This document shows positions 13,425-17,165 of a stretch of 49,934 nucleotides of DNA, piece after piece (the stretch's first letter is position 1; each line of letters starts with the position of its first letter). The position numbers were made by a program, and so were the translations under genes. Under the pieces are notes generated by a model. That model worked only from the letters and a program-made list of their open reading frames with translations, was not told the DNA's origin and did no database searches. The DNA is taken from positions 1 through 49,934 of the forward strand of contig JAJRUJ010000084.1 of the NCBI GenBank assembly GCA_024277855.1. Direction: 5' to 3'. This DNA comes from Candidatus Zixiibacteriota bacterium. Its GTDB lineage: Bacteria > Zixibacteria > MSB-5A5 > WJJR01 > JAJRUJ01.

Positions 13425-13493
13425 GATTGATCGTCTGACACCGGAGGCACTCTGCCGAGATGATTTAACATGGTGGATAAAAGCAAGTGACAG

Positions 13494-13520
13494 GGCAACC
13501 CGATGGGTTGCCTTTTTTCT
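13494..13520 (+). terminator. Intrinsic terminator of the ribosomal super-operon
   Basis: A perfect 8-bp stem (GGCAACCC / GGGTTGCC) with a GAT loop is followed directly by six T residues at 13513-13518. It lies between rplQ and the next gene and should end the S10-spc-alpha transcript. Confidence 0.92.
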
Positions 13521-13542: not shown

Positions 13543-13920
13543 ATGAACACTAACGGGAAAGATTACCAGACAACCGGCTCGCGCTGGCGGGAGGTCCTGC
13601 TTGGCCTGCTGATCATCGCCGTCGCAATCGCGGTCACCCGCCTTTGGGTCGGCGCCAAAAATGCGCGTCGGGCCGATTCGCTCGCTCTACGGCATAGCGT
13701 CGCTTTGACCCTCACCACGGCCGATCGCTTTAACATTCCCCGCCCGTCCGCTGCCTGGGAACGCCTGTTGGCTGCCCCCGTTGGCCAGAGGATTCCCACC
13801 GGCGCAGCGCATGGATTCGTCGACAGTTTTCTGATCTCTTACCAGGACGGTATCCTCGACTCCGTCGAAACGACCGCTCTTTGCCGAATATTGCAGGGGT
13901 TTAACCCTGAGACGGAGTAA
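13543..13920 (+). CDS. Small single-pass membrane protein, unknown function
   Basis: I do not recognise this 125-residue protein. It has a short polar N-terminus, one hydrophobic segment at about residues 18-37 (WREVLLGLLIIAVAIAVTRLW), then a polar domain of about 85 residues. The orientation is probably N-in with the C-terminal part outside the cytoplasm. The ATG at 13543 follows the terminator of the previous operon, and the stop lies seven bases before deoB, so it probably heads the deoB transcript. No clear Shine-Dalgarno was seen. Codon use looks ordinary, so it is likely a real gene. Confidence 0.65.
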   Translation: MNTNGKDYQTTGSRWREVLLGLLIIAVAIAVTRLWVGAKNARRADSLALRHSVALTLTTADRFNIPRPSAAWERLLAAPVGQRIPTGAAHGFVDSFLISYQDGILDSVETTALCRILQGFNPETE

Positions 13921-13927
13921 GTAAAAA

Positions 13928-15115
13928 ATGCCGGCCGACACGATCCAACGCGTCTTTTTGATTATTCTCGATGCCTGCGGGGTCGGTGAATTACCCGACG
14001 CCGCCGACTACGGCGATGTCGGTTCGAACACCCTCGGCAACACCGCCCGCGTCGTTGGCGGGTTGGATTGCCCCCATCTCGAATCGCTTGGCTTGGGCAA
14101 GGTCACCAAAATCGCCGGGCTGTCGACGGCACAACCGGCACGTGGCGCCTATGGAAAAATGGCTGAACGTTCGGCGGGGAAAGACTCAACTTCCGGACAT
14201 TGGGAACTCGCCGGTCTGATTACTGAACGGCCGTTTCCGACCTACCCGGACGGTTTCCCGGATGACATCATCGCCGAATTTACTCAGCGCACCGGTTACA
14301 AAATCATTGGCAACAAACCTGCCTCCGGCACCGAAATCATCGCCGAACTCGGTGAAGAGCACCTGGCCTCCGGGGCGCTGATTGTTTATACCTCGGCCGA
14401 TTCGGTCTTTCAGATCGCCGCACATATAGATAATGTGCCTCTTGAAGAACAATATCGTATCTGTCAGATAGCCAGAGAGATACTGTGTGGCGTTCATGCC
14501 GTCGGCCGGGTCATTGCCCGGCCTTTTACCGGACAATCCGGCAGTTTCACTCGTACTGCCGACCGACGAGATTTTTCCCTCAAACCAACGGGGACGACAA
14601 TCCTCGATACGCTCATGGCGGCAAAGATTCCAACTATCGGCGTCGGCAAGATCGGCGATCTCTTTGCCGGGGTCGGGTTGAGCGAGAAGATTCACACCAA
14701 GTCCAACGACGACGGAATGCGGCTGACGAGCGAACTTGCCGGGACAGTTGGACACGGTCTGGTGTTTGTTAATCTGGTCGAATTCGATATGCTTTGGGGC
14801 CATCGTAATGATCCACAGGATTTCGCCGCCGCTCTCGAATCGTTTGACCGACAATTAGGCGAATTCCTCCCGTTGATGAGAGCGACCGATCTCCTGCTCA
14901 TCTCCGCCGATCACGGCTGCGACCCGACCACACCCTCGACCGATCACTCCCGCGAATACGTGCCGATCCTCTGCTATTCTCCCGGCCTGCCGGGTGATGT
15001 CAATTTGGGCGTCCGTTCCACTTTCGCCGATACCGCCGCGACAATTGCGGAGGTTTTCAGTGTTCGTTGGACCGGAGCGGGGGAGAGCTTCTATTCTCAA
15101 TTGCGGGGCGAGTGA
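13928..15115 (+). CDS. deoB: Phosphopentomutase
   Basis: DeoB (395 aa) interconverts (deoxy)ribose 1-phosphate and 5-phosphate in nucleoside metabolism and uses two metal ions. The alkaline-phosphatase-superfamily elements are present: LDACGVGELPDAADYGDVGS near residue 15, GNKPASGTEI, YTSADSVFQIAAH, NLVEFDMLWGHR, and ADHGCDPTTPSTDHSREYVP. The GKDT motif that carries the phospho-accepting Thr in E. coli and Bacillus cereus reads GKDS here (Ser 87). The ATG has GGAG nine bases upstream. The last bases overlap the next gene (GTGA). Confidence 0.95.
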   Translation: MPADTIQRVFLIILDACGVGELPDAADYGDVGSNTLGNTARVVGGLDCPHLESLGLGKVTKIAGLSTAQPARGAYGKMAERSAGKDSTSGHWELAGLITERPFPTYPDGFPDDIIAEFTQRTGYKIIGNKPASGTEIIAELGEEHLASGALIVYTSADSVFQIAAHIDNVPLEEQYRICQIAREILCGVHAVGRVIARPFTGQSGSFTRTADRRDFSLKPTGTTILDTLMAAKIPTIGVGKIGDLFAGVGLSEKIHTKSNDDGMRLTSELAGTVGHGLVFVNLVEFDMLWGHRNDPQDFAAALESFDRQLGEFLPLMRATDLLLISADHGCDPTTPSTDHSREYVPILCYSPGLPGDVNLGVRSTFADTAATIAEVFSVRWTGAGESFYSQLRGE

Positions 15116-15627
15116 ATCGTCCGACCATGAAACACCGGCTGGCCAAATGCTGTTCCCCTACTGACGGCGACCCTATCATCGCCTTTCTCAAACAGGGTGA
15201 CGTTGTCTTTTCGGTACACCGCGCCGATTGCGTCAACCTGAGCAAGGTTCCGCCCGAGCGGCTTGTTGCGGTTACCTGGGCTGAAATCAATGCCGCCGCC
15301 GCTCCTGCCGCACCTGTCCTTCCCGATTCGGTATATACCCAGCTTGACGACCACGCATTTGCCGTCCTGCGCCATCATCAGGTCATGGGCGTTGACTATG
15401 CGGCCGTCGTCGCCCGGCAGACCGGGATCAGCCGGGAAGAGGTGTTCACCCTCCATAAAAAATTGCGGGCTTTGGGTCTGCTGGCTCGCGTCGAACCAAA
15501 AATGATCCGGTACCGCAAGGGGATTGTCGACGGCAAATGGATCAAACACCGCAATCATACCTACTATGATCTGACCGAGCAGGGGCGGGCGGCTCTTGCT
15601 CGTTGGGAGTATCAAGGGCCGCAATAA
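15112..15627 (+). CDS. RelA/SpoT RIS-type domain fused to a winged helix
   Basis: This 171-residue protein appears to join two known modules. Residues 10-56 (LAKCCSPTDGDPIIAFL, then FSVHRADCVNL and ERLVAVTW) match the Cys-Cys-His-Cys RIS/zinc-finger region in the C-terminal half of RelA/SpoT, with Cys 13, Cys 14, His 36 and Cys 40. No hydrolase or synthetase domain is present. Residues about 75-171 look like a winged helix, with an HTH-like GISREEVFTLHKKLRALGLL and an end typical of such domains (LTEQGRAALARW). The GTG at 15112 overlaps the deoB stop; an ATG at 15127 is the alternative. Function is unknown. A ligand-sensing regulator is my inference. Confidence 0.75.
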   Translation: MNRPTMKHRLAKCCSPTDGDPIIAFLKQGDVVFSVHRADCVNLSKVPPERLVAVTWAEINAAAAPAAPVLPDSVYTQLDDHAFAVLRHHQVMGVDYAAVVARQTGISREEVFTLHKKLRALGLLARVEPKMIRYRKGIVDGKWIKHRNHTYYDLTEQGRAALARWEYQGPQ

Positions 15628-15698
15628 CTTTGCCGGCGCGGCCGGCGACCGGATTTTCGGTTGTCGGTCCATAACCAAAATCGTATGTTGTGGCAGTT

Positions 15699-15712
15699 CC
15701 GCCGTTTGGCGG
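15699..15712 (+). other. Small hairpin upstream of the lipid A operon
   Basis: CCGCC and GGCGG flank a GTTT loop, followed by CGATTTTC. It lies in the 140-base gap between the winged-helix gene and lpxC-fabZ. It could be a weak terminator or a leader element. No convincing promoter was identified in this gap. Confidence 0.35.
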
Positions 15713-15767
15713 CGATTTTCTATCGAAGTGGTCGGTGCCGAATAGGGAGATAAAAAGGGTACGATAT

Positions 15768-17165
15768 ATGGACAAAAACCAACGGACGATTAGCACCGGA
15801 GCTGAATTTTCCGGAATCGGCCTGCATACCGGGGAACCGTGCACCATCAAATTCCTCCCGGCGCCGACCAATCACGGCATACGTTTCCGGATCACCGTCG
15901 ACGGTGAAACACATGAAATCATCCCCGATATCGATAAAGTTGTCGATGTCAGTCGCGGGACGACTATCTCTGAAAACGGCGTCCAGCTCCACACCGTCGA
16001 GCATGTCCTTGCCGCTATCGCCGGGCTGGAGATCGACAATATCATTTGTGAGGTTGACAACCATGAACCGCCCGTCGGCGACGGGTCGGCCAAGCCATTT
16101 GTCGATGTGCTCCTTAAAGCGGGTATCGAAAAGCAGGACGCGATCAAGAATTATATCGAAATCGATGAGACCGTTGTCTATTCCGAACCGGATCGCAAGG
16201 TCGATATCATCGTGTTACCCTCCGACGCCTTCCGCGTCACCTTCATGGTCGACTATCAAAACCCGGCGCTCGGCACCCAATATACTTCCCTGGTTTCCCT
16301 GGAAGATGAATTCGCCAACGAATTTGCCCCCGCCCGGACGTTTTGTTTTTTGCACGAGGTCGAATTCCTCTATGAACAGGGGCTGATCAAGGGCGGACGG
16401 CTGGGAAACGCGATCATTATCGCTGACCATGGCATGACCCAGGAAGACGTCAACCGGCTCAAAATTATGCTCAATTACCAGGGGGATGTCGAGGTTGGGC
16501 GGACGGGGATTCTCAACGATACCCTGCTCCGTTTCCCCAACGAGCCGGTACGGCACAAAGTTGTCGACCTCATCGGCGACCTGTCTTTATTGGGTGGGCC
16601 GCTGAAGGCGCACGTCCTTGCCGGGCGATCGGGACACAAGGCCAATATCGAGGTCGCCAAAAAAATCCGTGCTCACCTCCAGAAAAAAGAGATCACCCGC
16701 AAATATGTCGGGCCAAAAGGCGGCCGCGGGATCGTCCTCGATGCCCAGGCCATCGAAAAAATCATGCCCCACCGTTACCCGATGTTGTTGATCGACCGCG
16801 TGATCGAACTCGATCCCGGGAAAACCGTCGTTGCGATTAAGAACGTCACGATCAATGAACCGTTTTTCGTCGGCCATTTTCCCGGCCACCCGATCATGCC
16901 CGGTGTCCTTATTGTTGAGGCGATGGCCCAGGCCGGGGGCGTGTTGTTGCTTAATGCCGTCGAAAAACCGGAAACCAAAGTTGTTTATTTCATGGGCATT
17001 GACGGTGTCCGTTTCCGTAAGCCGGTCCTGCCGGGCGATCAGTTACGCTTCGAATTGGAGTTGATCTCATTTCGTCGCTCGATGTGCAAGATGGCGGGCA
17101 AGGCCTTTGTCGACAATCAACTCGTGACCGAGGCCACCCTGATGGCGGCGATTGTCGAAAAATAG
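15768..17165 (+). CDS. lpxC/fabZ: LpxC-FabZ fusion: UDP-acyl-GlcNAc deacetylase / hydroxyacyl-ACP dehydratase
   Basis: This bifunctional protein (465 aa) joins LpxC, the zinc deacetylase that commits UDP-3-O-acyl-GlcNAc to lipid A, to FabZ, the (3R)-hydroxyacyl-ACP dehydratase. The LpxC half (about 1-305) has HTVEH with Glu 78 and zinc ligand His 79, then HKVVDLIGD with His 263, Asp 267 and Asp 271, and GHKANIE with His 290. The FabZ half (about 328-465) has [11 protein letters not shown] and [19 protein letters not shown] with catalytic His 370 and Glu 384. Such fusions are known from Bacteroidetes and relatives. The ATG at 15768 was chosen because it gives the LpxC N-terminus directly; GGGAGATAAAAAGGG lies upstream. 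Confidence 0.96.

Follow-up and report, generated by a model that had tools for sequence, protein, structure and literature searches.

The RIS (ribosome-intersubunit, also ZFD or CC) domain is described as a ribosome-anchoring domain of the stringent-response enzymes. It is the main ribosome anchor in Rel (PMC4974054, PMC5829649), and in the E. coli enzyme R629 adjoins the phosphates of the A-site finger; R629E, which matches R619E of B. subtilis, and C612A/C613A have been used as ribosome-binding mutants (PMC7058999). DUF2250 is sparse in the literature searched: two papers name it, one of them in a tabulation of protein families from Methanoperedens plasmids that gives no function. In the same literature, which left out most subscription journals, no description was found of an architecture combining a RIS domain with a winged helix without a synthetase, nor was there a paper that mentions a 'RIS domain' together with RelA and a winged helix, in agreement with the preliminary description of this DNA, which knew of no such system. 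The protein reported here has this architecture, and may represent a new kind of regulator; it is encoded in the window, the whole 49,934-nucleotide stretch of Candidatus Zixiibacteriota DNA that was analysed.

The fusion gene occupies positions 15112–15627 of the forward strand and encodes a protein of 171 residues, in which a RIS domain (residues ∼8–60) is followed by a DUF2250 winged helix (residues ∼78–163). The reading frame is certain to be coding, judging from 49 relatives with 40–62% identity. Its GTG start overlaps the stop codon of the preceding gene as GTGA; an alternative start is offered by the ATG at 15127, and the GTG fits because the family consensus starts 12 residues ahead of the Cys pair. 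The preceding gene (13928–15115, forward strand) encodes a deoB-like phosphopentomutase (Pfam metalloenzyme superfamily, 1.1e-33), and the apparent operon of three genes begins with a gene (13543–13920, forward strand) for a small uncharacterized protein for which a Pfam search gave no match. This small conserved protein, whose gene separates deoB from the ribosomal alpha operon, is 42% identical to its counterpart in the family's next genome. A terminator-like hairpin at 13492–13514, ahead of the gene for the small protein, divides the ribosomal alpha operon from the fusion gene, which therefore appears to close a small unit of three genes. The next gene downstream is an LpxC–FabZ gene, in which a single reading frame (15690–17165) fuses LpxC with a FabA/FabZ-like dehydratase. 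The fusion gene is coupled to deoB and lies just before the lipid A operon, as had been noted previously. No Rfam RNA was found at the fusion locus.

The RIS domain (residues 8–60; 15133–15291, forward strand) was recognized by model, PDB, profile and fold matches. The NCBIfam RelA/SpoT models match residues 6–62 with E-values from 7.8e-10 (TIGR00691) to 1.3e-5, RelA/Rel chains in the PDB match at 2.9e-9 by sequence and at 3.7e-11 with the family profile, and an hhalign comparison of the profile of 50 relatives with 29 RIS domains from Rel proteins of the same phylum gave a probability of 98.9 and an E-value of 3.3e-17. An AlphaFold2 model of residues 1–64 (pLDDT 85) has RelA, Rel or SpoT as all nine of its best PDB matches, with r.m.s.d. 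values of 1.4–2.2 Å, and beyond these three no match in the PDB had a meaningful score. The RIS assignment proposed in the preliminary description was thus borne out by both the profile and the structural model. Pfam RelA_AH_RIS did not match the fusion protein; this is no evidence against a RIS domain, because the RIS of Rel taken alone (8.6e-4) also falls under the cut-off of that model. As stated earlier, the 171-residue frame carries C13, C14, H36 and C40; this putative zinc site (15148–15231, forward strand) is invariant in all 50 fusions and in 30 of 30 Rel proteins, and P16 and W56 are likewise invariant across the 50 fusions. Domain searches of the protein found RIS and DUF2250 alone, with no TGS, helical or ACT domain, and the earlier statement that no alarmone synthetase is present holds for the synthetase, HD, TGS, AH and ACT parts alike.

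Alignment with Rel indicates that the RIS scaffold is retained in the fusion, whereas one known ribosome contact is lost. The loop K27–V32 (15190–15207, forward strand) stands in place of the TRGRG loop, which contacts the A-site finger in Rel. In all 30 Zixibacteria Rel proteins this loop reads TRGRG or TKGRG, whereas in the fusions it reads SHDN, SYDN, KEDG and similar, with mostly uncharged or acidic residues, and the second Arg of RGRG is kept as Arg or Lys in only 5/50 fusions. The assignment of R629 to this second Arg was made in the present analysis by counting residues backwards, starting at the conserved His. The overall charge of the domain shows no difference between the two groups (means of +1.1 in Rel and +0.7 in the fusions). 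The preliminary description had inferred that the protein may sense a ribosome-linked signal; the fold around the zinc site is retained, but with the RGRG loop lost, Rel-style docking of the fusion protein on the ribosome is doubtful.

The C-terminal half, previously described as resembling a winged helix, is a DUF2250 domain (residues 78–165; 15343–15606, forward strand) with a wHTH fold. The match to Pfam PF10007 has an E-value of 6.3e-15 and a score of 55.5 bits, against a curated cut-off of 24.4, the domain was matched in 50 of 50 relatives, and the model of the full-length protein (pLDDT 88) shows the wHTH fold. Its most conserved part is a basic wing (residues 131–156, YRK...KWIKHRNHTYY..T; 15502–15579, forward strand), with a mean column entropy of 0.56 bits, compared with 1.63 bits for the RIS domain and 1.45 bits for the remainder of the DUF2250 half. 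In the segment KWIKHRNHTY, residues 142–143 and 145–151 are invariant in all 50 fusions, and I144 is kept in 49. The motif KHRNHTYY is also found in stand-alone DUF2250 proteins of 110–117 residues from another bacterial phylum, which have no RIS domain; the winged helix therefore occurs, with the wing retained, independently of RIS. These stand-alone proteins (loci L187–L190 and L120) occur sporadically, in 5/61 cases, in a phylum with small genomes, and some of their genes directly follow a glyA-like gene. DUF2250 proteins of haloarchaeal plasmids have an HTYY wing and two winged helices; in the two haloarchaeal loci L185 and L186 the wings end at or near HTYY, and the second wing of L186 keeps HTYY in part. 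DUF2250 thus probably provides the output, with RIS as an addition specific to this lineage, probably acquired in the Zixibacteria/Poribacteria family or in their donor.

A search for the same fusion in related genomes, suggested in the preliminary description, found it in 75 of the 132 genomes of Zixibacteria and in 67 of the 85 of Poribacteria, with one copy per genome in nearly all cases; one genome (G069) has a second, partial match (L184), in which part of the stretch reads N. The scan of genome contigs kept its best 80 places, and none of the about 118 further bacterial genomes sampled from other phyla contained the fusion. When the set was widened to 251 relatives, a single match fell outside the phylum, in a Poribacteria genome with coordinates identical to one already counted. 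A wider spread suggested by the NCBI labels 'Calditrichota' and 'FCB group' was rejected, as these records share coordinates with genomes counted as Zixibacteria. Matches in phage, plasmid and viral collections were limited to Rel fragments or unrelated wHTH proteins, and none was a fusion. In the gene tree, Zixibacteria and Poribacteria are completely separated (support 100/100), and the window copy groups with families f1, f15 and f11. By these comparisons the fusion is a real, conserved gene family, seen to date only in these two groups of uncultured bacteria. The similarity of its RIS domain to that of Rel might be taken to mean that the frame is left over from a disrupted Rel gene or is an artefact of annotation; this reading was set aside and has a negligible probability, since an intact Rel of 746 residues lies on another contig of the same genome, the same two-domain protein is encoded by over 140 genomes from the two phyla and its conservation is strong. 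Rel was above the family cut-off in 36 of the 40 fusion-bearing Zixibacteria genomes. In one 97%-complete genome (G036, locus L113) the fusion is present and Rel was not detected, which an assembly gap could explain.

The preliminary description further proposed that the protein controls nearby genes, which the comparison of loci does not support. In Zixibacteria family f8 the fusion gene stands beside a divergent DUF819 membrane-protein gene and before a DUF5117 metalloprotease gene, whereas in Poribacteria its flanking genes are purD and one for a VWA protein, the latter followed by a short-chain dehydrogenase (SDR) gene (purD and the dehydrogenase were named by eye from the sequence). The deoB and lpxC setting is kept in the window's own family alone (two genomes). 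Since no neighbour is conserved between lineages, local control is unlikely and was dropped as a general rule. That the protein regulates deoB or the adjoining lipid A genes in particular is very unlikely: the GTGA overlap with deoB and the place before lpxC are kept in one other genome of the same family, but in no other lineage, and such an overlap shows co-transcription rather than regulation.

Upstream of the gene, no conserved operator was found: the motif search gave no operator-like palindrome beyond the coding ends of neighbours and a -10 box, and the strong motifs were traced to the end of the purD coding sequence in Poribacteria or to the beginning of the DUF819 gene in Zixibacteria. 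Masking left a TATATT -10 box as the sole clearly outstanding motif. At the Zixibacteria loci with an intergenic stretch upstream (for example L012, L034, L061, L063 and L067), a TATATT-like -10 box ends 2–14 nt before the start in 25/32 fusion genes, compared with 12/128 control genes, and a Shine–Dalgarno sequence precedes 1/32 fusion genes, compared with 53/128 control genes of the same loci (Fisher tests, 3e-14 and 1e-5, respectively; the loci are related, so that these p-values overstate independence). With a -10 box at the start and Shine–Dalgarno sequences rare, a leaderless mRNA is predicted, and the Zixibacteria fusion gene looks leaderless. Neighbouring gene families at the same loci did not show this pattern, and in Poribacteria a -10 box of this kind was found in 0/39 genes and a Shine–Dalgarno sequence in 1/39, compared with 122/211 controls. 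The window copy is coupled to deoB instead of having the leaderless layout. Translation of the leaderless class of mRNA depends on 70S ribosomes (PMC9031893).

Taking these observations together, we tentatively favour, at a little under even odds, a trans-acting regulator that binds nucleic acid, probably DNA, with the RIS domain as an input, partner-binding or dimerization module. A stand-alone, single-copy protein of this kind would use its DUF2250 winged helix for binding; the contact surface would be formed by the basic wing YRK...KWIKHRNHTYY together with H115, K117 and R119 of the recognition helix, and the targets of the protein would lie elsewhere in the genome rather than among its neighbours. 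The RIS domain, a former Rel module presumably held together by the Cys-Cys-His-Cys site, would serve as input, in partner binding or in dimerization, rather than as a copy of the ribosome anchor of Rel. Nucleic-acid binding, a preference for DNA over RNA, bound zinc and an input function of the RIS domain are inferred, whereas the two domains, the conserved site, the loss of the Arg loop, the varied neighbours and the occurrence of the wing motif in DUF2250 proteins lacking RIS are direct observations. In favour of this reading are the wHTH fold with its MarR/PadR/AspA-type matches, the presence of DUF2250 in every relative, the wing that is invariant across two phyla and recurs in stand-alone and haloarchaeal relatives, the homology and fold of a RIS domain that has nevertheless lost the A-site-finger loop, the unconserved neighbours expected of a trans-acting factor and the nearly constant single copy. 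Against DNA stand the missing operator-like palindrome upstream of the gene and the lack of any DNA-binding DUF2250 in the literature searched, and the invariance of the wing across two phyla would fit a conserved RNA, such as rRNA or tRNA, equally well.

A ribosome-associated factor is the main rival, somewhat unlikely but substantial: RIS would dock near the A-site finger and bridge B1a, and the winged helix, in place of ACT, would bind rRNA or tRNA, so that the protein competes with Rel or reports the state of the A site without making (p)ppGpp. The retained RIS fold, zinc-site residues, W56, R50 and short helix, the anchoring role of RIS in Rel, the basic invariant wing and the leaderless appearance of the gene in Zixibacteria are consistent with this, whereas the replaced RGRG loop, the existence of DUF2250 without RIS and the absence of the family from most bacteria sampled argue against it. 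A combination in a single polypeptide, in which RIS reads the state of the ribosomal A site and the winged helix acts on DNA, giving a ribosome-to-promoter switch beside or without (p)ppGpp that is made from a leaderless mRNA in Zixibacteria, appears improbable. Slightly less probable again, and next among the rivals to the ribosome-associated factor, is a partner of Rel, in which the fusion RIS would pair with that of the cell's own Rel and tune it or bring it to DNA. Oligomerization of RelA has been linked to conserved Cys and Asp residues of the CC/RIS domain (C612, D637 and C638; reviewed in PMC3153485), and the equivalent cysteines are invariant in the fusions, but the position of D637 is Asp in only 58% of them; Rel accompanies the fusion in most genomes, but it is near-universal in bacteria, so that co-occurrence says little, and the genome G036 has the fusion with no Rel found.

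In conclusion, this study describes a conserved use of RIS apart from an alarmone enzyme, which would show what this domain can do by itself; the fusion could reveal a second bacterial link from translation or nutrient state to gene expression, and the KHRNHTYY wing provides the first clear hallmark for the uncharacterized DUF2250 family. Compared with the long RelA–SpoT homologues (PF19296, TIGR00691), the fusion has the same RIS fold, with r.m.s.d. values of 1.4–1.8 Å to PDB entries 5kps, 5iqr and 6htq, and the same Cys-Cys-His-Cys, P16, R50 and W56, whereas it is without the HD, SYNTH, TGS, AH and ACT domains, has lost the TRGRG loop and has two fewer residues separating the helix from the ERL strand; it falls outside this enzyme class, as the NCBIfam match spans only the RIS positions 553–606 of 687. 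With the MarR/PadR-type regulators and AspA of plasmid pNOB8 it has the overall wHTH fold in common, whereas the wing is different, and the Foldseek E-values of ∼1e-3 to 1e-2 with a TM score of about 0.4 denote a likeness at the level of the fold only. The stand-alone DUF2250 proteins of archaea and some bacteria have the same HTYY wing, and some share GxDYS and the FDxHKKL helix, but they lack RIS, and the haloarchaeal proteins carry a different N-terminal domain and a second winged helix.
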